Assembly (NCBI RefSeq): GCF_000189635.1
Contig: NW_002476414.1
Location: 1 to 64,000, forward strand
DNA: 64,000 bases
From: Tetrahymena thermophila SB210
Lineage: Eukaryota; Ciliophora; Oligohymenophorea; Hymenostomatida; Tetrahymenidae
Direction: 5' to 3'
The notes under the pieces are model-generated. The model was given only the letters and a program-made list of their open reading frames with translations, was not told where the DNA came from and did not search any database. Shown here piece after piece: positions 3,515-49,583 of the stretch. Both the position numbers and the translations under genes were made by a program. Numbering within the stretch: the stretch's first letter is position 1; each line of letters starts with the position of its first letter.

Positions 3515-6500
3515 ATGAAAATCGAATTAACTGAAAAAGGCTACTCTGATTTTAGGTTTTTAGGGTAAGGAGCACAAGGATTGGTCTTGTTAGCAAAAGA
3601 TTCTAAAACTTAAATGAGATATGCCATCAAAGGTGTTTAAGTGAGAGATATTTAGGGAAATCTTTATGATGATGTTTAAAATAAAGTGAAATAAGAAATA
3701 GATATACTCGAACAATGTAGAGGATCTCCTTATGTAGTCAGCCTTTTAGACTCATTTGAAGGAAAATAGTTCATCTACTTAGTTCTAAATGAGTGTTAGG
3801 GTACAAAATACTAATTTATTATCTATTTTATTTTATTGTTAAATAAAAATATATTTTTAAATTAATTATTAAACATTAAAAAAAAAGGAACTCTCACTGA
3901 AATCATAGATATGAACTAAAACAAAAGACTGAATGAAATATCAGCAATAAAATATGCTAAAGATATTACTGAAGGCCTTTACTATATTCACTCTAAGAAC
4001 TGTCTAGTTAATGATCTGAAAATGGACAATATCTTAATTGACTACAATGGAAATGCAATTGTTTGTAAATTATTGACAAACCTAAAAAAGACTTAACACT
4101 CTATAAAATTAATATTATAGCTGATTTTGGATTAGCAGATAAACTGACAGATAAATCTGGTTATTCAGCCAATCAATATGTATAAATAAATATTTTCACC
4201 CACATTAACAACAAGAAGTTTGATTAATTCAATTAAAAAATTTTAAGTTGGGAAACTTTATTTATCAAGCGCCAGAATGCTATGACCCAACTGACAAAAT
4301 CATAGGTAAGGTTTATTACGATGAATATTAAAAATTAGGGGTTAAAGTAAAACAAGAACCTAGTAACAGAGTAAATACTTTAGTTAAATAATAATATTAA
4401 TTATCTTGTTTTTGTAAATTAATTAATTAGAGCGAAGCATGCTCTTTAGGTATTAAATAAAATTAAAAATCTAATGGCTTAATTTAGTTAATTTAAAATA
4501 AATAAATAGGATATATAATTTATTCTCTTATCTAAGGAATAGATTTCAACTTAGTATTTAATAAGCATAAGCCACTAAATTATGATAGTGAGTTTTAAAA
4601 TTTTGTTTATCGCAAATAGCTTAAACAACTTATTGATGAATTAACTTAATTTATCCCAAGAAATAGATTACCCATTAAAGAAGCTTTAATTGTTTTAAAA
4701 GGAATTATTTGTTTTGAATTTTAGTTAGATGATATGCTTATTGAGATGATAGATAGAGATACTCAACAGCTCGCTAGTTCACTCGAAAATGAAATTGAGT
4801 TTGTTTAGGATTTATCAAATAAGTTTTATCCTATCATGTAAGAAGATTTTTTCAAATATACTATATTTTCTAAGTTTTTTTGAAGTAAAAACTAGCAGAG
4901 CTTAATCTAAGAGTTGAAAGAAGAAACTCAAAAAATAGTTTATGTGATTTATCAAAATTTTGCTAAAGTTATTCTTAATTTACTCAAAATAATTAATAAA
5001 AAAGGAGGCAAAAATAGCAGATTTATAGTAAGCAAATCTCATGCTTAAAGAAAATATTAGTTAATTAGAAGAAAAAATAAAAGTTTTATTAGAGAAATAA
5101 AAAAATTAGGGAGAAATACAAAAAAATTAACCGTACTTACAAATGTTTTCACATAAAGAGCTGAATAAAAATATTATTTAAATAGAACATATTCACTGTT
5201 CATCATTTCAACAGAACAAATCATTTTACTTTTTATACTTAAAAGCATGTAAGTTATTTTTCAGCATTCTTTATTATGAAAAAAAACTAACTTTCACTTA
5301 TAAATAAGTTTTCATTTAAAACTGATTAGAAAATAATATCTTTCAATTATTTTTATTTTTTTTATTTTAAATTCATCTTTAAATAACAAGTACCTTACTT
5401 TAATAATATTTTTCCTTTTTTTAATTAATTCAAATTTATTTTAGTATACAAAAAAATAAGTAGCTTTTTTTAACTAATTTATATTTAATACCGAATCTTT
5501 TGTTTTTATATTAATAGGAAGTAAATAAATTCTAATATCAAGATTATTAATTAACTTTCATATTATTTTAGAGGGTCACATTTTTTATCATCACTAACTA
5601 TTACTCAATTTAAATCTTTCACCAAAATAGATTGTAATCTCTCATATATTCCTTAAAATAACATACTAAGTCTACTTATATTTTCAAAATAGGATGTAAA
5701 CTTTATTATCTCAAATTTATGAATTTATTATCTAAATAAAAACAGGTAATCAATTATTAAATAATTTTTGATGTGAAAATAATTGTTTAATTATCTTTTA
5801 TATTCAAAAAAGCTAGTAAAAAATTTTAGAATGATTTTTGATGAGAAAATAATAGCTGAATTATCCTTAATATTCAAAATAGTTAGTAATCAATTAATAT
5901 TTTAGAATGATTTTTAATGAGAAAATAAATGTTGAATTAACTTTCGTATTCTAAATAGCAAGTAATTAATATTTTAGAATGATTATTAATGAGAAAATAA
6001 ATACTGAATTAACTATCATATTCAAAATAGGTTGTAATAAATATTTTAGAATGATTTTTTGATGTGAAAACAAACACTTACTTAATTAATTTTCATATCA
6101 AAATAGCGAGTAATTACTTTTTTATAATAATTTTTGATAAGATAAATGCTAATTTAATTTTGATAATCAAAATAGCTAGTAATAATTAATATTTAATAAT
6201 TATTTTTTGATGGGAAAATAAATGCTGAGTTAACTTTCATATTCAAAATAGAATGTAATCAACTATTTTAGAATAATGCTAAATTAATTTTCATATCGAA
6301 AATAGATAGTAATTAATATTTTAGAATGATTTAAATGAGAAAAAATTCTGAATTAACTTTCTTAAAAGATAGTAATTAAAATTTTAGAATTATTTTAATG
6401 AGAAAATAATTGCTGAATTAACTTTCATATAAAAACAGCAAGTAATTAATTAATATTTTAGAATGATTTTTAATGAGAAAATATTTGCTAGAGTAACTTT

Positions 6501-9500
6501 TATATTCAAAACAGAGTGTAAAATTGTTGATATGCAGTAGGTGAATAAAATAAATTATTGAATAAACAGCCAGTAAAGAATATTTTTAGGATTTTTTACG
6601 AAAGAATTTCTAAATAAAATAATAGAGAGTATCATCTTTTGAATATTTTTTTAAAAGAATACTATTCAATTTATTTAGTATTAACAAAAAGAAGTAATAG
6701 TTTTGAAGCTATTGACAATGTTTAAAGATTTATAAAAAATTCTAAAAGGATGTAAAATAAATATTTTGGTTTTTAAATACCAGATTGAGAAATAAATGCT
6801 TTTTTATTTGAATTTAGTGGGTATTAATTAATTTATTTGATATTTTATTATTTAATTATGTGCGTTTAAAAAATAGATAGTAATTAATTGATTTCAAGAT
6901 GGTGAATAAAATTATGATTTTAAATAGCATGTAAATATCCTTTTATACTCAAAATAAAAAGAAGCTATTAAAATTATAAAAAGCATGTAAATTTTAGCAG
7001 AAATTATCATAAAAGTAGATGAATGTATTGTGATAAAAAATTAAATTAGGAAGTAAATTTTAAACAATTTTATTAGAAAATAAGAAAGAAATTCGATGTT
7101 ATTAGGGAAGATTGGTAAATAGATTTGAATATACTTAAGAAAACATAAGAATAATCTAAAAAATTCATAAGGAAGTAATATTCTTAAGTACTCTTTTAGA
7201 AATTTATAAATAAAATTTAACTTTAAAAATAGCGAGTAATATTTTTAAGGAGTGATGGCGATTTTTTAAAAAAATTAAATTAAATAGAGAGGAGTAAATT
7301 ATTATTTAAAATAAATAAGTGAATATGAATTATTTAATCAATATTGGTAAAAAATTAGAATGTAACTAATTTAAATTATTTTAGAAAACTAATGCTTAAA
7401 TTCAATAAATAAATAAATGAATAATCAAATAGGATGTAAATGTTATTAAATATATCAGATTTAAAATATTTATTAAATTTAATATGAATAGGACGTACTA
7501 AAGATTCATTTTATACTAAAATGAAATAGAAATTAATTAATTTAATTTATGAATCAGATTGTAAGATTTAAATTTTCGATGTAAACAATTACCAAGCTAT
7601 ATCTTCAATAAAATAGATAGTAAGGCTTTCATTATCTTTTTTTATTCTTTATTAATTTATTTTTTTAAACAGTGAGTAGCATTTTTACATCATTTTACTA
7701 TAGAAGATGACGAAATATTTTAAAAAGGGAGTAAATCTTTAGTGCAGTGAGTGTCATTCTTAAATTCTAAATTATCTTATTTTTTTAGAGAGTATAATAT
7801 TTACATTATATTTTATTAGAAAACCCTAAAATATATTTAACTTTTAATTAAGCGATTGGTAATTTTAATTTTAGCTTTTTAAAAGTTTAATAAAAAATAT
7901 TTAAATAGGAAGAAGTAAGGATCTATTATATACTTGGCTTGAGCTATCTTTTGTTTTATTAAAAAAAATTAATAGGCAGTAATTTTTTGAACTAATTTTT
8001 GAACAAGATGGTTAATTAATTAAAACTAAAAATATAGAATGTTAAAAGTTTATTGAATTATCATTAGAAAATTCAAATTAAATTTTAAAATAGTGGGTAA
8101 CCTTATTACTAAAGTGTTTCTAAACAAATTTGTTTTCATTTTACATTTAAAAAAGCAAGTACAAATATTTAGTTATTCCATCTAACTTTGGAAACTCTTA
8201 CTTAACTTTTAAATTTATAAAGAGTGTAAATTTGTAAATTGATTACATTCTAAATAGTTAAATCTCTCTATTAATCCAAATAGCAAGTAATATTCAGGCC
8301 ATACCTTTAAACTATAAATAAAATTTTATATTTCAAATAGACTGTAAAAAATTATTTACTTTTGATTAAATAATACTTATTTAAATTTATTACATTAATT
8401 AGTGGGTAATTTTGAACATCTTTAGGAGACATTCTTTGATAATTTTTTATATCACTTAAAGAAAGTTATATTCAATTATTTTTATCAACATAAGATGTTT
8501 TATGAACTTTTATATTCAAAATAGCTTGTAATTAATATTTGAAATTATTTTTGATGAGAAAATAAATAAATAAATAAAATGATGATTTAACTTTCATAAT
8601 CAAATTAGTCGGTAATTAATATTTTAGAATGATTTTTAATGAGAAAATAATGCTGAATAAACTTTAATCTTTAAATTAGACTGTAATTAATATTTTAAAT
8701 TGATTTTGATGAGAAAATAAATGCTGAATTAACTCTAATGTTCAAAATAGTTCGTAATTAATATTTTAGCAAGAATATTAATTCGAAAATAACACTGATT
8801 TAACTTTAATATTCAAAATAGGTTGTAACAAATATCTTAGAATGATTTTTGATGAGACAATAAAAACTGAATTAAATTTAATATTCATATAGACTGTAAT
8901 TAACATTTTAGAATGATTTTTGGCGAGAATAAAAATGCTGAATTAATTTTCATATAAAAATAGACTGTAATTATAATATTTCAAAATGAATTTTGATGAT
9001 AAAACAAATGCTAAATTTACTTTTACTTTCAAAAATTAGTGAGTAATTAATATTTTAGAATGATTTTTGATGAGAAAATAAATGTTGAATTAACTTTCAT
9101 ATTCAAAATAGTTCGTAATTAATATATTAGAATGAAAATAGATGCTTAATTAACTTTCATATATAAAATAGATAGTAATTAACATTATAGAATGATTTTT
9201 GATGAGTAAACAAATGGTGAATTATTTTCATATTCAAAATAGCTAGTAACTAATATTTTTAAAGAGAAAATAAATGATGAAAAAAATAAAAATTGAAAAT
9301 AGTGAGTAAAATCGGCGAATTTTTTTAATTCAAAATTAAATAATTTTATGAAAAATAAATAGGTGGTAATAATCAGTAGAAGATAAATAAAAGAGATGGA
9401 ATATAAGTTTTTATTAAATAAAACAGCTAGTAAAATTTTATTATATTAATTTGGATGATTTATCTAAGTTAATATTTAAAAAAATAGATAGTAATAGTTT

Positions 9501-9780
9501 TTAAAGCTTTTAAAGAGGAAATAAAAATAAATTCTAAAATCTAAAATAGTGAGTAAGAATTTAGTATCAATCAATTAAAAAAAAATAATTAATTTAAACT
9601 CTAAATTAGATTGTAAAATACCTGATTGATTTAAAAAGAAAAAGATAGAAAAAATAAAATAGGAAGTAATATTGTTGAATAGCTTAAATTGAAATAAGAT
9701 CAATCAATTTAAATATCAAAAATAGTTGGTAATAAATTTACTAAGAATCAACATTAATTAATATCTTCCACTTAATTAGA
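3515..9780 (+). CDS. Protein kinase with coiled coil and a C-terminal tail encoded by 68 micro-exons (471 aa predicted)
   Basis: Serine/threonine-type kinase. Exons 1-9: 3515-3800, 3888-4064, 4121-4179, 4248-4310, 4431-4449, 4510-4802, 4896-4937, 5005-5197 and 5265-5307. The 68 micro-exons follow (see 5445-9782). Visible motifs: glycine loop GQGAQG (17-22), YAIK with Lys39, Glu61 (alpha-C), VND in place of HRD with Asp138 kept, DLKMDN with Asn143, DFG at 156-158, APE at 182-184 and SLG at 200-202. The catalytic Lys, Asp and DFG Asp are present, so activity is plausible. Residues about 300-350 form a Glu/Lys/Leu-rich coiled coil. Residues 392-471 come from the micro-exons. Hand-chosen exon phases all agree and sum to 1416 nt (472 codons with TGA). 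A TGA at 4881-4883 lies inside the intron 4803-4895 of this model. Exons 6-9 are less certain than 1-5. Confidence 0.72.
5816..6514 (+). repeat. Run of similar 51-76-nt introns, left wing of the array
   Basis: Introns share the pattern GTAATTAATATTTTAGAATG, then TTTTTGATGAGAAAATAAAT, then TGAATTAACTTTCATATTCA and AAATAG. Similarity falls off sharply towards 6570-8460, where only the AG-NNN-GT junctions persist. This suggests recent copying of an intron plus 3-nt exon unit. Confidence 0.7.
8465..9302 (+). repeat. Run of near-identical 57-81-nt introns, right wing of the array
   Basis: The same intron consensus as at 5816-6514, mostly 68 nt long. Five consecutive introns (8683-8750, 8754-8821, 8825-8892, 8896-8963 and the preceding 8612-8679) are exactly 68 nt. 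The 3-nt exons between them differ (ACT, TTC, GTT, ACT, ACT). Confidence 0.75.
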
Positions 9781-9782
9781 CA

Positions 9783-10199
9783 GTAAAATATTTGAAATCA
9801 TTTTTATTTTCTCTCTAAGCATTTGAATAAATAAGGGTAAATTTTTTATAAAATATTTGAAGCAGAAGAGTAAGTAAGATATAATTAAAATAATTAAGAT
9901 TAAGATGATATTAAATATATATTTTATTTATCCAAAAATATTTTATAACTTACTTTTGTTTTTAAAAGAGCCAGGTTACACACAATATTTGTTAGAATCA
10001 GGGAAAAGAATTCAAGAAATCAGGGATAGATAGATGCTCTTTTTTATTTGTTTGTTATCAAGAAATTAATAACCTAAATTTTATTTAAATATTAAATATA
10101 ATATGATTTTGTGATATTATTTTTTATGTTTGATATATTGTAGTTTTAATTAAATTTTTAAACTTTTTTTTTTAAACGTAAAAATAAAAAATAAAAAAA
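9783..10199 (+). other. Probable 3' UTR of the micro-exon gene and shared downstream block
   Basis: Two more splice-like junctions (AG then G then GTAAAT near 9835; AG-TAA-GTAAG at 9869-9875) follow the predicted stop. From 9892 a frame is open to TGA at 10110-10112. This block is duplicated at 1240-1480. It may be 3' UTR. It could be a terminal exon if the micro-exon reading is wrong by a phase. Confidence 0.4.
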
Positions 10200-11565
10200 A
10201 TGTAAAAAGCTGATGCTTTAAAAGTGAAATATAATCTGTATGTTAATATTTATTTAAAGTAAGAAATTTTATCCTTTTTATTTTTTTAATAATAAAATGA
10301 ATGAAATCTAAGATTTGTCATTTTACTTATTGTTTTGTAAATTACTTTCTTGCTTTGTATTAGTTAATATGATATATTATATCATCATATGTTATGATGA
10401 TTCGAAAAATCATTAAAAAATAGGAAAATATAAATTTTATTAATATAATGATATAAGATACTATATATAATGTTAATAATTTCATTTACACTTGTTTTAA
10501 CAAAAAATAAACATTTAAAAAGCTAAGAAATATTATTTATTAGAATATAATTAAATAAATATTTCTTACAAAACAAATAATTATTCATAGCTATATATAC
10601 TTTCAAAATTTAGAAAGAGTTAGGTGTGGGTGATATTACTTTTTATTACATATTCAGTATTCTTCTGAATATGTTTTTCTAATGTTATAAAAGTAAACAA
10701 TTAAGATCTCATTTTTAGTCTTTAAATATTTTATACTCATGTTAAAAACAAAAAATTAATACTTAAATTATTTTTTAAATTTAAAACAATTTAGTAGTTT
10801 CTTTTTAGCTATATATAAAATATGTTATTTTCGAATATTGAAATTAAACGATAATTGACTTTGATCACACTGATTTAAACTACAAATTAATTAAACTAAG
10901 CTAAATTTTATTATTGATATATTTTTCTTCTTCTAAATAATACATCAATAAATTTCCAATTTTCTTCAGAATTTATTTTTTATATTTTTTTACCATAAAA
11001 AATAAAGATAGATCTCTTAATTCTATCTATTATTAAAAATAGTTTATATTAAAACTTTAGAATAAAAAATTAATTTTAAAATATTCTATTTTTATATTTT
11101 ATACTATCTAAATATTTTAATTTTTTTATTTATTTCTTGTTTGATTAATTTTAAGTACTCTTTAATATATAGTTAATAAAAAGGGAAGAACTAATTAAAT
11201 TAAATCACTAATCATATTTAGATTTATAAAATATTAATGGACATCAGAAAAATACTGACATTCAATTCTACCCACCACTATTATTTGATAATTAATTAAT
11301 AAATTTATATCTTTTCAAAAATTTAATATTTAGGGATTAATTTATTAGAAAAAATTTTTTGTTTTTGCTACAAAAAATTAGTCAGAAATTAACTTTTCTG
11401 AAAATCTTGCTACAAATAAATATCTGATTTTTAAAAATCAATTAATAATAATTAATTAAAAGAAAAAATTTATTCAAAACTAGGAAAATGAGAAAATTAG
11501 TTAAGCTGTTTAAAAATTGCTAGATAACCTAAAAAGCTTTTTGCTAGATAACCTAAAAAGCTTTT
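10200..11565. repeat. Upstream region of TPR gene 1, duplicated at 16330-17868
   Basis: No gene seen. The last kilobase is strikingly similar to 16860-17868, including GATCACACTGATTTAAACTA, ATAAAGATAGATCTCTTAAT and GCTACAAAAAATTAGTCAGA. A 24-bp unit (GCTAGATAACCTAAAAAGCT plus TTT) occurs twice in tandem at about 11518-11565, directly before the ATG. TPR gene 2 has it once. Confidence 0.7.
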
Positions 11566-14500
11566 ATGTTTCATTCACTGAATATGAATTAAAGGTATTT
11601 CTTTTCACAACCTAGCTCAAATACAAATTCTTTCAATCAGAATATTGAAGTAGATTACAAAATATCTTAAGATGAGAGAAAAACAGTTGATCTTAATCTG
11701 CTATCAAGAAATTTAGACCTATAAAATTTATCTTAAGAGAGTGCTAAATAAAAATACTTGATTCATATATAAAAATATCCAAGAACAACAGAAATTCATA
11801 TGCTTTACGGATTAATATTTTAGTCAATGAAAATGATTGAAGATGCTAAAAATTGCTTTTAAGAGGCTATAAAAATTGATTCCAATAGCACTTTAGCTTA
11901 TTAATGTTTAGCAGATATTTATGAAGATAGCTGGAATTTTTCAGAAGCTGAAAAGCATTTACTGAAAGCTTTAGAAATTAGCTCAAATTAAATTCATTTA
12001 AATTATAGGTTAGGAGTTCTTTATTAAAAAACTGGGTAGCTTGAAAAATCTAAGACATTCTTTCTTATTTATGAAGGCCAAGAGAAAGCTTTAAAAATGA
12101 AAAGTTAAGACTAATAATCTAAGATTTAGTTAGGATAATTTTACAAAAAGATAGGAAAAATTGAAGAGGCTGCTTAGTTTTTCTAAAAGGCAGATGAGAT
12201 TCAACCTTTTTAAGATAGTGAACTAAATTACAATATAGGTTTACTCTTTTATTAAACCAAATAATTTCAAGAGTCAATAAAGTGTCTACTGAAATATAAA
12301 GAAAAATATCCATAACATTTTAATACCAACTATGTTCTGGGGTAAGCTTACTTACAACTAAAGTAATTAAAAGAGTCTGAAATTTGCTTTCTTTAGGCTC
12401 TCGAAATTTAACCATAATCAGCAGACGTGTGCTTTTCTCTAGGATTGATTTATTTTAATTTAAAGATGAATGAAAAAGCTTAAAAATATTTTTTAAAAGT
12501 TTAAAAAACTGATCCTAAAGATTTAGATTCAGCTTTTTATTTAGGGTGTTTGTATTAAAGCGATAATAAATAAGAAGACGCAATTTATTGTTTCTAAAAG
12601 GTTTTAGAAATTATTCCTTAATGCTTCGAAGCTAATTTTTAATTAGGATTTTCTTTAGAGTTAATTGGAAAAGTAGAAGTGGCTAAAGAGTATTTCTAAA
12701 AGGCTTTTGAAATCAAACCGTAATCAGTAGAAGCATATGTCTAATTAGGAATTTTTTACTTGAAGTTTGGTAGGAAAGATGAAGCCTAATAGTGTTTCAT
12801 AATGGGTTTTAACAATAATCCTAAAGAATTTGAGTCATTGATTTCAGAAAATGTTGATTCTTAATTATTCACAAATTTAAAAGTCCAAAAAGATTTAGAT
12901 CAAGTAAATGAAAAAAATTTTTATTCTAGCCTCTATCTAGGATATGTTTATGAATTAATTGGAAGGTTAGAAGATGCCAAAAAACATTACTTTAAAGTTC
13001 TAGAATTGTAGCCAAATTTATTGAATGTGAACTTGTAATTAGGAATACTTTACATGAATGAAAAAAATGAAAAAGAAGCTGAATCGTTTTTAAAAAAGGC
13101 TTATAATATTGATCCTAACAATTTTGATACTAATACACAATTAGGGTTATTTTATTTATAAAATAATAGAGAAAATGAGTCTAATTAGTATATTTAGAAA
13201 GCCTATGAAATCGATCCTGATAATTATTTAATTAATTATTAATTAGGAATTTAATATAATGAAAAAGGAAATTATGAAATTGCAAAAAAATATTCCTAAA
13301 AGGCTTTAGAAATTAAACCATAATGTGAAAAGGCATATATACTATTAGGAGATATCTATTTGAATTAAAATATGAAAAAAGAAGCTGAATTTTATTTGAT
13401 GAAAGCTTATTAAATTAATCCTAACAGCTTGGAGTGTAATATTCTACTTGGAAGATATTATTTCACGATTTAAAAATATGAAGATTCAATAAAACAATAC
13501 CTAATAGCATCAAAAATAAACCCTTCAAATTTTGAAATTAATTTTTTTTTAGGAATTTTATATTTAGATGTGGAAAATCTAGAAAAGGCAGAATAATACT
13601 TATTGAAAGCTTCATAAGCATAGGGTCAAGAATAAAATATATATCTTTTTTTAGGATCTATCTTTTTAAAACATAATAAAATGAAATAAGCAGAATATTA
13701 TTTTTTAAAAACTATTGAGTCTGATCCTACAAATTTTTAATATTTATTTTAAATTGGAGATTAATACTGTAATTTTGAAAAATTTGAAGAAGCTAGATTT
13801 TATTATCAGAAGGCTTTAAATTTAAAACCATCATCAGAAGAAATAATTTTAAAATTAATAAGTGTTTACAAAATGTGCAGCAGTACTTAAGAGATTTAGC
13901 AGTTTCTTTTTGAATTCTTAGAAAAAAACCCAGAAAATTAATATGCATTTACTTTAATAGGAGGTTATTATGAAAATATAGGAAAATTTACAGAAGCTAA
14001 GTAATACTACTTGTAAGCTCTATAGATCAATCCTGATAACTTTATTACGATTTGCCACTTGATTTAGAATTATATTACTACTGGAGAAATAGAAAATGCA
14101 AAATCTTATTTTGAGAAACTTTTAAAATTAAAGATAAGTAAAGATGAAGAATATATTAGTATTGGTACATTTTAAGTATAATTTTAAATGATAGAAGAAT
14201 CTATTTAAAGTTTCTTGAAAGCTTTAGAAATAAATCCTTAAAATAGCTAAGCTCACTATAAATTAGCAAAATCTTACATGTAAATTGGAAGAAATGAAGA
14301 GGCAAAAAAAAGCTACTTCAAGGCTTTTAAAATGTATCCTGAATCTGAATAAGCTTTACAAGATGTTGGTGACAATAGCAATAATAATATACCAGTTGAA
14401 GCCTAAAAATATTTTAAAAAGGTTTTATCAATGAATAATCCTCGAGAATTAAATTGTGATATTAAATTAGCATATATTTATTTGGAATTGAATTAATTAG

Positions 14501-14607
14501 AAGATGCAAAATCATATTTCCAGCAGGCTTTAAAAATTGATCCTAAGCTTATAACTGAAATCTTGTAGGATAAAGAAGCCAAAAATTTCTTTGAAAAACT
14601 ATTATGA
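11566..14607 (+). CDS. Tetratricopeptide-repeat protein 1 (1013 aa, single exon)
   Basis: One uninterrupted frame (TAA/TAG as Gln) from ATG to TGA. After a polar N-terminus of about 75 residues it is nearly all tandem 34-residue TPR units. Recurrent positions are LG..Y, EA..YF.KALEI.P and related forms, for example EDAKNCFQEAIKIDSNS and EAEKHLLKALEIS. TPR solenoids are protein-binding scaffolds. No other domain, signal peptide or membrane segment is visible, so the partner and pathway are unknown. The start follows a long AT-rich leader and is matched in the paralog at 17869. The gene is the first of a tandem pair about 6.3 kb apart. Relative to copy 2 it has about one extra TPR near 13160-13270. 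Confidence 0.93.
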
Positions 14608-16329: not shown

Positions 16330-17868
16330 TATACTTTTGCTTTGCTATTATATTTTATAATCCCAAATTAGATTAGATTCCTAATATAATTTGCAGATAT
16401 GTTATTATTATAAATAAAAATGGTAAATTTAATTCAGGATATAAAAATTTAGGATTTAAAAGTTAAATGTATTTGTGAATATTTATTTAAAGTTAGAAAT
16501 TTTGTCCTTTTTGCTTTTTTGCTGTTTAAATGATGAAATAAATGAGGACTAAGATTTTTCATTTTACTAGTTGTTTTGTAAGTTGCTTTTTTTCTTTGTA
16601 TTAGTTAACATGATATATGATATCATCTTATGTTGACTAATGATTCGAAAGATGATTGAAAAACAGTCAATTATAAATTTTATTGATATTATGATCTAAG
16701 ATGCTATATATAATATTAATAATTTCTGTAAATAAAATTTTACTTGTTTATTCTAATTGCAAATTAATTAATTTACACCAGTTTTAACAAAAATAAACAT
16801 TTAAAAAACTAAGAAATATTATTAATAGGAATATAATCAAATAAATAATATTTCTTACAAGCTAAATAATTATTTGAGTGAGAATAGCTATATATACTTT
16901 CAATTTTAAAAGTGAAAAATTAGGTGTGGATGTTACTTTTTATAACATATTCAGTATTCTTTTCAATATTTATTTTTTTATAATATTATAACAAACAGTA
17001 AATAATTAAGATCTCATTTTTAGTATTTAAATATTTTATACTAAGATAGGTACTAAATAAAATAAAAAAATTAATGCTAAAGTGTTAGTTTTTATATTTA
17101 TACAATTTAGAGGTTTCTTTTTAGCTATATATAAATCTGTTCTTTTCAAATATTTAAATTAAAAGATAATTGACTTTGATCACACTGATTTAAACTACAA
17201 ATTAATTAAATTAAGCTAAATTTTATTATAGATTTGTTTTTCTTCTTCTTAAAAACCAATCAATCTAGCAATAAATTTCCAATTTTCTTCAGAATTTATA
17301 TTTTATATTTTTTTACCATAAAAAATAAAGATAGATCTCTTAATTCTATCTATTATTAAAAATAGTTTATATTTAAACTTTAGAATAAAAAATTAATTTT
17401 AAAATATTCTATTTTTATATTTTATACTATCTAAATATTTTAACTTTGTTATTTATTTCTTGTTTGATTAATTTGAAGTACGCTTTAATATATAAATAAT
17501 AAAAAGGGAAGAAAGAATCGAATTAAATCACTAATCATATTTAGATTTATAAAATATTAATGGACATCAGAAAAATACTGACATTCAATTCTACCCATCG
17601 TCATTATTTGATAATTAATCAATCAATTTTAATACTTTTCAAAAATTGAATTTTGAGGGATTTATTTATTAGAAAAAATTTTTTGTTTTTGCTACAAAAA
17701 ATTAGTCAGAAATTAACTTTTCTGAAAATCTTGCTACAAATAAATATCTGATTTTTAAAAATCAATTAATAATAATTAATTAAAAGAAAAAATTTATTCA
17801 AAAAAACTAGGAAAATGAGAAAATTAGTTAAGCTGTTTAAAAATTGCTAGATGACCTAAAAACCTTTT
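16330..17868. repeat. Upstream region of TPR gene 2, duplicate of 10200-11565
   Basis: Closely follows 10200-11565, including the conserved kilobase before the start codon. No gene seen. The conservation of non-coding sequence next to the start suggests either recent duplication or shared promoter function. Confidence 0.7.
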
Positions 17869-20832
17869 ATGTTTCATTCACTGTATATGAATTAAAGGTA
17901 TTTCTTTTCGCAACCTAGCTCAAATACAAATTCTTTCAATCAGACTATTGTAGTAGATTACAAAATATCTTAAGAAGGTTAAGAAGGGAGAAAAAATATT
18001 GATCTTAATCTGTTATCAAGAAATTTAAAGCTATAAAATTTATCCTAAGAGAGTGTTAAATAATAATACTTGATCAATATATAAAAATAACCAAGAAAAG
18101 CTGAAATTCATATTATTTATGGATTAATATTTTAGTCAATGAAAATCATTGAAGATGCTAAAAATTGCTTTTAAGAGGCAATCAAAATTGATCCAAATAG
18201 CATTTTAGCTCATTAATTTTTAGCAGATATTTATGAAGATAGCGGGAATTTTTTAGAAGCTGAAAAGCATTTACTGAAAGCTTTAGAAATTAACTCAAAT
18301 TAAATGCATTTAAATTATAGGTTAGGAGTTCTTTATTAAAAAACTGGATAGCTTGAAAAGTCTAAGAAATTCTTTCTTATTTGTGAAGGCCATGAGAAAG
18401 CTTTAAAAATGAAAAGTTAAGACTAATAATCTTGTATTTAGTTAGGAAAATTCTACAAAAAGATAGGAAAAATTAAAGAGGCTGCTTAGTTTTTCTAAAA
18501 GGCAGATGAAATTCAACCTTTTTAAGATAGTGAACTAAATTATAATCTAGGTTTACTCTTTTGTTAAGCAAAATAATTTCAAGAGTCAATAAAATATCTA
18601 CTGAAATATAAAGAAAAATATCCATAACACTTTAACACCAACTATGTTCTTGGGGAAGCTTACTTACAACTAAAGTAATTAAAAGAATCTGAAATTTGCT
18701 TTCTTTAGGCTCTCGAAATTGAACCATAATCAGCAGACGTGTGCTTTTCTCTAGGATTGATTTATTATAATTTAAAGAAGAAAGAAAAAGCTTATAAATA
18801 TTTTTTAAAAGTTTAAAAAATTAATCCTAAAGATTTAGATTCAGCTTTTTATTTAGGGTGTTTGTATTAAGGTGATAATAAATAAGAAGACGCAATTTGT
18901 TGTTTCTAAAAGGTTTTAGAAATTATTCCTTAATGCTTCGAAGCTAATTTTTACTTAGGATTTTCTTTAGACTTAGTTGGAAAAGTAGAAGAGGCTAAAG
19001 AGTAATTCTAAAAGGCTTTTGTAATCAAACCGTAATCAGTAAAAGAATATGCCTAATTAGGAAATTTTTACTTGTAGTTTGGTAGGAAATATGAAGCCTA
19101 AAAGTGTTTCATAAAGGGTTTTAACAATAATCCTATAGAATTTGAGTCGTTTATTTCATAAAATGTTGATAGTTAATTATTCACAAATTTAAAAGTCCAA
19201 AAAGATTTAGATAAAATAAATGAAAAAAACTTTTATTCTAGCCTCTACCTAGGATCTGTTTATGAATTAATTGGAAGGTCAGAAGATGCCAAAAAACATT
19301 ACTTTAAAGTTCTAGAATTGTAGCCAAATTTATTGTATGTGAACTTGTAATTAGGAATACTTTATATGAATGAAAAAAATGAAAAAGAATCTGAATCGTT
19401 TTTAAAAAAGGCTTATAATATTGATCCTAACAATTTTGATACTAATATAAATTTAGGATTATTTTATTTATATATTGAAAGATAAAATGAGGGAAATGAT
19501 GAAATTGCAAAAAAATATTTCTAAAAGGCTTTAGAAATAGAACCATTATCTGAAGATGGATTTATTTATTTAGGAATTATCTATTTGAATTAAAATATGC
19601 TAAAAGAAGCTGAATTTTATTTAACGAAAGCTTATTAAATAAATCCTAATAGCTTTAAGTGTAATTCTCAACTTGGAAAATATTATTTTGCAATTTAAAA
19701 ACTTGAAGAATCAATAAAATATTACCTAGTTGCTTAAAAAATAAAACCTTCAGATTATGAAATTAATTTTAATTTAGGAATTTTATATTTAAAAATGGAA
19801 AATCTAGAAAATGCAGAATAATATTTCCTGAAAGTTTTACAAGCATAGGTTCAAGAATAAAATGTATTTTTTTATTTAGGATAAGTCTATTTAAACCAAA
19901 ATAAAATGAAATAAGCAGAATATAATTTTCTAAAGGCTGTTGAATTTGATCCTTAAGAATTTTAATGGCCAAAATTTATAGGAGATTTATATTTAAGCTT
20001 TAAAAAATTTGAAGAAGCTAGATTTTATTATCAGAAGGCTTTAAATTTAAAACCATCATCAGAAGAAAGTTTGTTAAAATTAATACATATTTACTATAAG
20101 TGCAACATTTCTTAAGAGATTTAGCCATTTCTTATTGAATTCTTAGAAAAAAACCCAGAAAATTTATAAGCAATTATTTTACTAGGAGGTCATTTTGATG
20201 ATATTGGAAAATTTACAGAAGCTTAGTAATACTACTTATAAGCTCTATAGATCAATCCTGATAGCTTTAAAGCGATTTGCCACTTGATTTAGAGTTATAT
20301 AAGAACTGGAGAAATAGAAAATGCAAAATATTATTTTGAGAAACTTTTAAAATTAAAGATAAGTAAAGATGAAGAATAATATATAAATATTGGAATTTTA
20401 TAAGTATAATTTCAATAAATAGAAGAATCTATTTAAAGTTTCTTAAAAGCTTTAGAAATAAATCCTTAAAATAGCTAAACTCATTATAAATTAGCAGATT
20501 GTTACGAGAAAATTGGAAGGAATGAAGATTCAAAAAAATACTACTTAAAGGCTATAGAAATTAACCCTGAATTTGAAGAAGCTTTATATCAACTTGGGGA
20601 TTACTATTTCAAAAACTGTAAGCCAGTTGAAGCCTAAAAATATTATCAAAAGGTTTTATCAATAAATCCTCAATAATTAAATTGCCATATTAAATTAGCT
20701 TATATTTTTTAGAAATTCAATTAATTCGAAGATGCTAAATACCATTTCCATAAAGTTTTAAAAATTGATCCTAATTTTTTGAGCTAGTTGCAGGATGAAG
20801 AAGCCAAAACTTTCTATGAAAAACTATTATGA
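17869..20832 (+). CDS. Tetratricopeptide-repeat protein 2 (987 aa, single exon)
   Basis: Paralog of the gene at 11566, open from ATG to TGA with no internal TGA seen. It shares the N-terminus, the TPR register and the C-terminal ending (AKTFYEKLL compared with AKNFFEKLL). Substitutions are spread over the whole length and one TPR-sized stretch is missing around 19480, giving 26 fewer residues. Both copies stay open, so both are probably functional scaffolds. Upstream sequence is nearly identical, but the downstream flank is interrupted by another gene (see 21542-24591). Confidence 0.93.
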
Positions 20833-27776: not shown

Positions 27777-28600
27777 GTAATAGTCCTGGTATTATTTCTA
27801 TTTAAATAAAAGCTATTCTATGTTCAAAATAATTATCTATCTTTGTATCTAAGTACTTAGTTACTCACTCTATTTATATATTTATGTATGTCTTTCCTAT
27901 GAATTATACTAAATATTATTTTGCTATAATTATTATGATAGATTGATTGATATTCTTTTTAGATTTAATATTACTAAGTATGCTTATTTATTGATTAATT
28001 AATTGATTTATTATTAGCATAACTAAATGATCTTAAAATAGCAAGAAATAAATCACAATTACTATCATTTCAATTATTTGAATTTATATCTTTACAACCA
28101 TTTATTTTCAATCAATTACCACTAAATACTATCTCTCAAAAAATCTAAAATTATAAGATAAGCTTACATTATCCTTTGATAAAGGATATGTTCTATTTTT
28201 TATAAGCAATTTTTATCTTATTTTCATAAAATTTATTTTAATAGAGAAAGAAAAAAATATTTTTTAGGTATGTTTTAGATTAACAATATAGTTTTAAAAC
28301 TAAAGTGAGACTTTCAAAATAGCTATTGATATCTCTTAACTGACTCTTAAATGGAATCAGCAGAACATAATTACAAAATTATGCAATTAAAATAATAAAG
28401 AGAAGAAAACTTTTATGTTCTAATTACTTGAATTTAGCTTACTAAATAAAAAGTATAAATGTGCATATAACCAAAATTAATTAAAAAAAGGGTGAAACTT
28501 TACAATAATGCAATTCAACTGAAAATAAAGAATATGTTTATAAATCCATCAAATAAAATAAAATTATTATTAACTAAAATTTAAAATAATATTTTTTTTT
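27777..28600. other. AT-rich spacer, no gene seen
   Basis: No exon, RNA gene or repeat recognised. A short frame continues upstream of the ATG at 27776 without another Met until TGA at 28053-28055 (minus strand). Confidence 0.5.
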
Positions 28601-29405
28601 TAAATAATGATTTGGAATATAAACTCAACCAACAAATTTAAAACAAAGTGATTATTTAATTATGATACAAAAAAAACAAAACAAAATGAAATAATTATTA
28701 AATTAAAAAAAATTATTTATTTATTTTATTTTTTTATCAATTTAATTTATTATTAATTAAATAATGATTTGGAATATTAACTTAACCAACAAAATTAAAG
28801 CAAAGTGATTAATTAATTTTGATATAAAAAAAACAAAATAGAATGAAATAATTATTAAATTAAAAAAAATAATTTATTTGTTTTATCTCTTTATCAATTT
28901 AAATTATTATTAATTAAATAATGATTTGGAATATAAACTCAACCAACAAATTTAAAATAAAATGATTAATTAATTTTGATACAAAAAAAACAAAATAGAA
29001 TGAAATAATTATTAAATTAAAAAAAATTATTTATTTATTTATTTTATCTCTTTATCAATTTTAATTATTATTAATTAAATAATGATTTGGAATATAAACT
29101 CAACCAACAAATTTAAAACAAAGTGATTATTTAATTTTAAAATTAAAATTAAAAATAAAACAAAATGAAATAATTATTAAATTAAAAAAATAATTTATTT
29201 ATTTATTTCATCTCTCTATCAATTTAAATTATTACTAATTAAATAATGATTTGGAATATTAACTCTACCAATAAATTTAAAACAAAATGGTTATTTAATG
29301 TTGATATACAAAAAACAAAACAAAATGAAATAATTATCAAATTAAAAAAAGTAATTTATTTATTAATTTTATCTCTTTATCAATTTAAATTATTTATAAT
29401 TGAAT
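28600..29405 (+). repeat. Five tandem copies of a repeat of about 160 bp
   Basis: The marker AATGATTTGGAATAT starts at 28606, 28763, 28920, 29081 and 29245, a period of 157-164 bp. Each unit continues with AACTCAACCAACAAATTTAA or a variant, then CAAAATGAAATAATTATTAA, and ends with a TTTATCTCTTTATCAATTTA-like stretch. It lies between the cNMP-binding gene and the 3' end of the LRR gene, and shows no coding frame. Confidence 0.9.
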
Positions 29406-45274: not shown

Positions 45275-45347
45275 GGGGATCTAGCTCAAATGGTAGAGCG
45301 CTCGTTTAGCATACGAGAGGCACTGGGATCAATGCCCAGGTTCTCCA
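45275..45347 (+). tRNA. tRNA-Ala (anticodon AGC)
   Basis: 73 nt with discriminator A. The A box (TAGCTCAAATGGTAGAGCG), the anticodon stem CTCGT/ACGAG around loop TTAGCAT, and the T stem CTGGG/CCCAG with loop ATCAATG are clear. The loop starts with A rather than T54, as is seen in many eukaryotic tRNA-Ala. The acceptor stem GGGGATC/GTTCTCC has one T-T mismatch at the sixth pair. A short T run follows as Pol III terminator (TTCTTTTTTC). Confidence 0.95.
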
Positions 45348-49510: not shown

Positions 49511-49583
49511 GGGGATCTAGCTCAAATGGTAGAGCGCTCGTTTAGCATACGAGAGGCACTGGGATCAATGCCCAGGTTCTCCA
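49511..49583 (+). tRNA. tRNA-Ala (anticodon AGC), second copy
   Basis: Identical over all 73 nt to the tRNA at 45275-45347, with a T-rich terminator. It was duplicated together with the RNase-like gene unit. Confidence 0.95.

Follow-up and report, generated by a model that had tools for sequence, protein, structure and literature searches.

The first 64,000 nucleotides (nt) of contig NW_002476414.1 of Tetrahymena thermophila (the window, to which all coordinates refer unless another contig is named) form the start of contig C133 in the 101-Mb, 445-contig genome that we searched. The forward strand carries a protein-kinase gene, a coiled-coil exon and, directly downstream, a long array of junctions in which an acceptor AG and a donor GT stand three nucleotides apart (AG-NNN-GT). 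Translation was performed with code 6, in which TAA and TAG encode glutamine (Q) and TGA is the stop codon. Judged from the genome sequence, the array very probably represents the C-terminal tail of the kinase gene, divided into about 68 micro-exons, 62 of them 3 nt long, by AT-rich introns of mostly 48–81 nt. The parts of the gene, in order, are:

3515..4883, forward strand: protein-kinase part in several ordinary exons (about 3515–3800, 3888–4060, 4121–4179 and 4248 on; boundaries drawn by eye)
5005..5132, forward strand: coiled-coil exon, ending after codon position 2, with donor GTACTT at 5133
5246..5520, forward strand: first micro-exons (CAT 5246–5248, a 15-nt exon 5445–5459, GAA 5518–5520)
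5631..6517, forward strand: 5′ repeat part, 3-nt exons with similar introns (ATT 5631, GAT 5693, CTA 5813, TTA 5883, CAA 5959, GTT 6031, CGA 6107, CTA 6176, AAT 6252, ATA 6306, ATA 6369, CAA 6439, AGT 6515)
6570..8464, forward strand: middle, non-repeat part, with exons of 3 nt, 6 nt (7288, 7853, 7909), 9 nt (7106) and 15 nt (6679), their order mostly conserved in paralogues
8525..9305, forward strand: 3′ repeat part, 3-nt exons from CTT 8525 to TGA 9303
9363..9782, forward strand: terminal micro-exons GTG, CTA, ATA, TGA, ATT, GAA, TTG (9726–9728) and ACA (9780–9782)
9783..10200, forward strand: conserved block 3′ of the stop codon, aligned with paralogues

Between 5445 and 9790 there are 66 instances of AG-NNN-GT, where 7.7 are expected and none of 200 Markov shuffles has more than 17; for TAG-NNN-GTA the count is 45 and the expectation 0.9. 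When the distance between TAG and GTA is set to any other value from 0 to 30 nt, the count does not exceed 3, and positions 10001–64000 show no peak at a distance of 3 on either strand (3 occurrences on the forward strand, 10 on the reverse). An automatic chain took 56 of the 66 AG-NNN-GT sites; 3-nt exons at 7172, 7673, 7789, 8038 and 8462 and the 9-nt exon at 7106 were placed manually, guided by the alignment of paralogues, and the sites at 5572, 6538, 6899, 7748 and 8008 were excluded. The final model comprises 68 micro-exons at 5246–9782 with 243 exon bases (62 exons of 3 nt, three of 6, one of 9 and two of 15), totals identical to those of an earlier note on this DNA, which had listed 62 three-nucleotide junctions and six of 6, 9 or 15 nt. 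Recomputed GC contents of 30.5% for exons and 17.3% for introns uphold the difference reported there (about 31% against about 19%), and the introns fall in the range of 48–81 nt given there, bar three of 110, 117 and 196 nt. The end of the array at 9782 was likewise placed correctly, whereas its start at 5445 has to be moved upstream: a micro-exon lies already at 5246–5248, and around 5246–5520 the paralogues show additional exons that have lost AG or GT in the window copy. Inside the 117-nt intron, CAG abuts GT at 5743–5747, which could be a zero-length exon or a ratcheting site. Tandem-repeat mapping puts repeats only in the flanks of the array (5746–6515 and 8578–9259, period about 72–76); the middle (about 6570–8460) is without tandem repetition, yet its junctions are kept, as the earlier note had also said of these unrelated sequences.

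The window kinase exons, joined by eye, match the Pfam profile PF00069 (E = 5.1e-37, profile positions 1–168 of 263), consistent with a protein kinase. Counting the window itself, 31 places in the genome match kinase exon 1. Across 20 loci this exon is free of stop codons, and its median ratio of nonsynonymous to synonymous divergence (dN/dS) of 0.31 over 188 of 190 pairs (two left out with dS ≤0.03 or undefined) indicates that it is under purifying selection. Micro-exon arrays are present on the gene strand in 19 of the 20 related kinase loci fetched, with TAG-NNN-GTA occurring 10 to 91 times, against 0 or 1 time on the opposite strand of each of the 20; a 21st locus, L033, also carries an array, of 28 three-base exons. 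Genome-wide, AATAG-NNN-GTAA followed 45–72 nt later by ATAG-NNN-GTAA was found 637 times versus 5 for the reversed pattern. A conserved block follows eight tails, seven complete and one cut by the start of the window. The latter, at 1 to about 1040, is a second micro-exon tail, with its tandem part at 1–417, and the shared conserved block comes after it at 1042–1457. Many kinase arrays lie within a few kilobases of contig ends (C9, C26, C29, C56, C161, C320 and others), which may be chromosome ends or assembly breaks in repeats.

The exon lengths are strongly biased toward multiples of three. A free-length chain search, which allowed exons of 1 to 45 nt and used no frame prior, returned 719 exons of 3 nt, 27 of 6 nt and 8 of 9 nt; the lengths 1, 2, 4, 5, 7, 8 and 10 nt occurred 7, 11, 2, 1, 1, 0 and 1 times. 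Direct counts of AG-to-GT distances on the gene strand over 71.5 kb of arrays gave 800 at distance 3, 42 at 6, 17 at 9 and 28 at 15; the remaining distances up to 16 occurred 2–12 times each, except for 33 at distance 2, and beyond 21 all fell between 17 and 36. On the opposite strand, 15 were counted at distance 3, and the highest value was 45, at distance 8. We ascribe the excess at distance 2 to the way in which the 15-nt exon ends (...AAAAAAAG|AT|GTAA); where the first chain had called a 2-nt exon AT, this 15-nt exon was put in its place.

Joined in phase 2, the 934 exons of 23 arrays yield 1,087 codons without a single TGA, against 12.0 on average (minimum 4 in 2,000 trials) when exons are shuffled within arrays. 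This count includes L030 (17 exons) and L031 (19 exons), members of a second family described below, and leaves aside L029, which lacks an array, L032, with 2 exons, and the tail truncated by the start of the window (7 exons, one TGA in phase 2, one doubtful 21-nt exon); in complete loci, the 0–4 codons past the first stop were trimmed. Phases 0 and 1 are ruled out for the kinase-family tail by 34 and 53 TGA in the same 23 arrays. The window alone behaves as the earlier note had described, with two phases interrupted (4 and 5 TGA in phases 0 and 1) and the third, phase 2, open. In the kinase family the introns would follow the second codon base, so that the first base of a triplet completes one codon and its other two open the following one, a net addition of one codon.

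The phase of the tail agrees with that of the exon upstream. The coil-end donor GTA[AC][AT]T was found in 11 loci, and its first match is in phase 2 in 11 of 11, five of which have later matches in other phases, where micro-exon donors sit; it was not found in seven loci with a coil (L011, L019, L020, L021, L023, L024 and L025). The window coil exon (5005–5132) and the tail read EAKIADLQQANLMLKENISQLEEKIKVLLEKQKNQGEIQKNQ-P-IIQKNKKLIYYKFDQIQYKVQDINKKKIGYIMKEDWNEEEMMTLYEEDDWKKQIGKVKLGNFRLSLLLDSYYECQYELN-stop, and the predicted tail, open for all 79 codons up to the shared stop, is in frame with the coiled-coil exon behind the kinase. The stop codon TGA is itself split over two micro-exons (9727–9728 and 9780). 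One homologous stop, split as xTG|Axx, follows ECEYELN in L011, ECQYELF in L015, ECEYELL in L018, ECEYELF in L021 and ECQYELN in the window, and in L022 and L026 the next recognised exon (AAG), about 200 nt downstream, likewise begins with A. The stop position is homologous in all seven complete loci, given that in L015, L021 and L026 it needs the 3-nt form of one exon (TGA|GTAAGA), as elsewhere, whose 18-nt form stops internally (EQEL-stop). An exon missed by the scoring (CGA, CCA or CTA, mostly after ACAG) is also visible at the same place in all seven. As predicted, then, the kinase-tail micro-exons form one open frame that continues from the coil and ends at a split stop, and frame, splice sites and stop position are common to the paralogues. 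Predicted peptides spanning the triplets include EDWNEEEMMTLYEEDDWK for the window, IVIGIGR and FGGILLAAGTLLLMINK for L011 and DWESLATNNGQK for L031. A Pfam scan of kinase-family tails from four paralogues and the window returned nothing below E = 0.1.

Two other readings of the ends of the tail were discarded. A separate tail gene, starting from an ATG split over the 15-nt exon and GAA, had seemed possible while the coil exon was read as ending in phase 1; it was given up because a phase-2 coil donor lies farther upstream, the supposed end of the coil exon is itself one more 3-nt exon, and the ATG is missing in the window. Inspection by eye does not support translation of the block after the stop (9783–10200), its indels often not being multiples of three, and this block is probably 3′ untranslated with further introns. 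Within it, AG-G-GT at 9834–9838 is a possible one-nucleotide exon past the stop, which reads TAG-G-GT in seven of eight aligned loci and AAG-G-GT in the window.

Even if the family is read correctly, the window copy could be defective, and we give a real, if somewhat short of even, chance to its being a pseudogene or a gene that yields the kinase only, with a tail poorly spliced or untranslated. Such a state would explain the TGA at 4881–4883 at the end of kinase exon 4, a place where L010, L014, L017 and L024 are open, and the several early micro-exon sites that lack AG or GT; it sits poorly with a tail that is open for 79 codons to the shared stop, and the exon 4 boundary was drawn by eye. 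In the four open copies, among nine that are readable, exon 4 ends in phase 0, as the coil requires (its end was not judged in L011, L018–L023, L025 and L026, where no GT or another GT was taken or the motif was not shown). Because exon 4 of the window ends out of frame for the coil, this copy, and perhaps others, may be damaged upstream of the tail, or the boundary as drawn may be wrong.

The genome-wide junction pattern also led to cysteine/histidine-rich genes ending in micro-exons on contigs C4 and C13. The loci of this second family are L030 (C4), L031 (C13), L035 and L036 (C78) and L034 (C112); we named it B-box-like by eye, the only Pfam hit of the C4 gene being CDPF1 at E = 0.0086, below its cut-off. 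The micro-exons here are in phase 0, and the predicted genes show that a second, unrelated family has the same architecture with introns between codons. The free-length chain of L031 contains 30 exons; every one of the first 23 has a length divisible by three, a property that most of the last seven do not share, and we took these seven as noise past the end of the tail. Read in phase 0, the 23 exons give the peptide PTSLFWKDWESLATNNGQKWGIEGKHQIFPTSGW, which has a sole match in the genome up to E = 10, at C112:560858–560947 (E = 7.1e-6, 50% identity, residues 2–31), in one uninterrupted frame; some 1 kb upstream of this match lies a paralogue of the N-terminal region. The L035 peptide, assembled from exons of 3 to 27 nt, finds the same place alone (E = 1.5e-6), although the L031 and L035 peptides are homologous to each other and so not fully independent queries. 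Aligned directly to the C112 exon, L031 and L035 score 98 and 103, compared to maxima of 48 and 54 in 2,000 shuffles, and L036 scores 47 against a shuffle maximum of 45; the wrong phases of L031 fail to align (17 and 29). In L031 and L036 a donor comes after the conserved ANxKGNH, where C112 continues with uninterrupted coding sequence. Since the L031 and L035 peptides match a single C112 exon, micro-exons called from splice signals spell what a paralogue encodes in one piece, and we regard this match as the decisive support for coding micro-exons. Within the family, intron density runs from none (C112) through partial (L035) and more (L031, L036) to a tail of nearly all 3-nt exons (L030).

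This match also bears on the possibility that the splice sites are real and the triplets noncoding, the whole array being one long intron removed by recursive splicing. Sites 3 nt apart do resemble ratcheting sites, and at 5744–5747 AG meets GT without an exon; a relay of this kind, however, would have no need for lengths in multiples of three, a TGA-free phase, a shared stop or a match to an uninterrupted paralogous exon, and we consider it improbable. The serial one-codon exons of a ciliate gene that the earlier note proposed are instead borne out, as predictions, by the chains in paralogues, the 3n lengths, the single TGA-free phase, the common stop and the second family.

The non-repeat middle part allows the kinase-family exons to be compared column by column. 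Eight loci (L023 partial) were aligned over 30 exon columns, with exons of 3 to 18 nt; most columns keep their own splice-site flavour (aaag, taag or acag; gtaa, gtat or gtta), and here and there a locus has lost its site, as L015 has in two columns. The window peptide of 6570..8464 reads QDINKKKIGYIMKEDWNEEEMMTLYEEDDWKKQIGKVKLGN, and agreeing middle peptides are IGYIKWKDWLKKDNEKMMIFYENNDWKKQIGKAELG (L018), IGWIKKEDWKIINQEKMMIFYETKNWDKQIGKAYLG (L016) and IGYIMKEDWNEEEMMTLYEEDDWKKQIGKVKLG (window). Divergence is 20.7% in the introns and 23.5, 20.8 and 17.4% at triplet positions 1, 2 and 3, which is the order expected if position 1 is the wobble base and suggests that purifying selection is not strong. 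A different pattern is seen in array stretches that are 94–97% identical: introns differ at 2.0% and triplet positions at 67, 66 and 50%, with AG changed in 0 of 727 and 0 of 722 cases and GTA in 1 of 2,130, in alignments that overlap and are not independent, take site classes from one sequence only and often pair different units of the array. In colinear paralogues the contrast persists at a lower level, with 8/33 triplet bases versus 7/638 intron bases differing between L019 and L025, and 11/36 versus 37/635 between L015 and L016. Diversifying selection, shuffling of units or a local mutational process are possible causes of the fast triplets. Few triplets are of a kind that would produce a further GTA across the junction (TAN 6 of 791, with 46.7 expected; GTA 0, with 21.7 expected, from position-wise base composition), as expected if the splice sites are used. 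The tail of L011 (C320:9600–19500) has 95 three-base exons that encode long hydrophobic, membrane-like stretches. Of its 19-residue windows, 26 are hydrophobic (over 1.6), where shuffled versions have 4.4 and none of 500 reaches that number; no such window occurs in the eight other tails tested, which are hydrophilic, unlike L011.

The flanking repeats, with their period of about 72–76, could suggest a tandem satellite that contains AG-NNN-GT by chance. Such an array should not keep its junctions amid unrelated introns, vary in the triplet while its neighbours stay frozen, hold to a single strand or carry a coding signal. We consider this account very improbable, and a satellite without coding constraint was rejected on the frozen splice sites, the TGA-free phase and the uninterrupted C112 exon. 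Ciliates excise germline DNA, and hypervariable 3-bp junctions between near-identical units would suit the joins of excised germline remnants or mobile elements; triplets marking such rearrangement sites would nevertheless not account for exons of 6, 9 and 15 nt, for an open frame or for the uninterrupted paralogue, which makes this alternative scarcely credible.

Several observations weigh against the interpretation of the array as a coding tail. The window kinase frame reads TGA at 4881–4883, just ahead of the donor at 4886, and kinase exon 4 ends in phase 1 in five of the nine readable copies (window, L012, L013, L015 and L016); L019, L024 and L025 meet a TGA in the coil exon, at codon 82. 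The absence of TGA from the 23 arrays depends in L015, L018, L021, L022 and L026 on the CGA/CCA exon that was added by hand before counting, and would otherwise be broken by an extra TGA there; six exons of the window model are hand-added as well. Chain scoring requires AG and GT, so that zero mismatches at these sites are built into the middle-part comparison. The free-length chains also hold exons of 13 nt (4) and 14 nt (12), lengths of 13 nt and above being mixed with the kinase region, and that of L036 includes one 7-nt exon. Middle-section triplets change about as fast as introns, and the kinase-family middle peptide has no uninterrupted counterpart in a genome search up to E = 1. In the second family, the alignment of L030 to the C112 exon scores 22, not above chance (345 of 2,000 shuffles as high). 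Finally, the paralogues are not independent of each other.

If the coding interpretation holds, each intron would be recognised alone, by intron definition, and the introns would be removed serially, with every triplet ligated to the lengthening exon upstream of it before the next removal, because splice sites 3 nt apart could hardly be bound simultaneously. The frame is unaffected when an exon of 3n length disappears, is added or is copied, which would let unequal exchange enlarge arrays of [intron + codon]. When a splice site is lost, only a codon would drop out and the frame would be kept, which may explain why the arrays persist; the window copy is among those that show lost sites of this kind. 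Introns of the second family would divide, or would once have divided, an ordinary exon codon by codon. We tentatively extend this to a broader proposal, which we regard as plausible but less than probable: a genome-wide process would chop coding exons into single codons by introns at codon boundaries, after which the [intron + codon] units of the kinase family multiply. Frozen, near-identical introns around fast-changing codons would then act as a codon-shuffling device that quickly diversifies the tails, up to membrane-spanning segments as in L011, with some 70–95 introns removed strictly in series.

Elsewhere in the window, two long similar open frames at 11428–14607 and 17752–20832 (TPR-like by eye) share similar upstream sequence and are apparently a tandem duplication. 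A 157-bp tandem repeat at 28600–29405 has five copies, about 88% alike. Two tRNA-Ala (AGC) genes with equal scores lie about 4.2 kb apart, at 45275–45347 and 49511–49583, and behind each lies one short 13-bp repeat, identical in the two places (46677 and 51279). In the genome searched, the telomerase gene matches PDB entry 6d6v, from Tetrahymena thermophila, in two stretches (103 and 137 residues) that deviate from it only at their inner ends, in line with this species as the source of the DNA.

In models of splicing, very short exons hinder recognition and their sites compete and collide; here, in an established model organism, tens of introns are apparently removed in series, with 3 nt from acceptor to donor. 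The arrays offer a testable system for the ordered action of intron-defined spliceosomes and for keeping the frame over about 70 splicing events. The paralogues show one segment with no, some and nearly codon-by-codon introns, which bears on how introns arise, and protein diversity may have a codon-level source in the triplets, given how fast they change. Tails of this kind would probably escape ordinary gene annotation and read mapping, and part of the Tetrahymena proteome may consequently be misannotated. We found no description of serial 3-nt exons among the titles and abstract openings that came up in searches of open-licence literature, a search that left subscription papers mostly outside, so that earlier notice is possible. 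Among the articles retrieved, the portions available of PMC2612030 and PMC12615304 hold nothing on serial 3-nt exons, that of PMC3274533 mentions a mapping option only, and that of PMC3276166 describes gene models with a tiny exon as set aside for being improbable.

The predicted exons have the length and flanks expected of micro-exons of the major spliceosome, being at most about 30 nt long and flanked by AG and GT. The arrays resemble introners and further kinds of mass intron gain in having many near-identical introns within coding sequence, and differ from them in that copies here also arise by duplication of tandem units; we know of no introner case with introns at every codon. Schistosome micro-exon genes provide a second comparison, made by description rather than by sequence and with a different phylum. 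Schistosome micro-exons are longer, at 6–36 nt, and to our knowledge dozens of successive 3-nt exons do not occur there. The kinase and coil described here lie in ordinary exons and only the tail is micro-exonic, unlike the schistosome type. The likeness lies in genes built for the most part from small exons, each a multiple of three in length, as the available part of the source describes them (PMC7263636).

A single-nucleotide exon has been described in Arabidopsis APC11, for which the authors, in the portion of the paper available, favour intron definition and recursive splicing, intron after intron (PMC4674806). The same portion gives 6 nt (constitutive) and 3 nt (alternative) as the smallest exons known before that case (PMC4674806). 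The triplets here are, like the APC11 exon, too short for exon definition, whereas exons of the APC11 type are isolated in otherwise ordinary genes (PMC4674806, as far as the text was available).

The closest comparison within Tetrahymena is with the leucine-rich-repeat genes that carry tandem arrays of 90-bp exons (Xiong et al. 2019, PMC6564038, of which part was available). Those exons are 30 times longer and encode leucine-rich repeats, and the available text does not mention 3-nt exons (PMC6564038). The window exons, at 3–15 nt, set the array apart from that class; the phase-2 introns of the kinase family are shared with it, and the introns of the B-box-like family are in phase 0. Both systems have tandem exons, similar introns and uniform 3n lengths, and in both expansion would proceed by recombination of exon units (PMC6564038). 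In the sections available, the genes with 90-bp arrays are described as young and as lying near germline chromosome ends and centromeres (PMC6564038), and many of the micro-exon arrays described here lie near contig ends.

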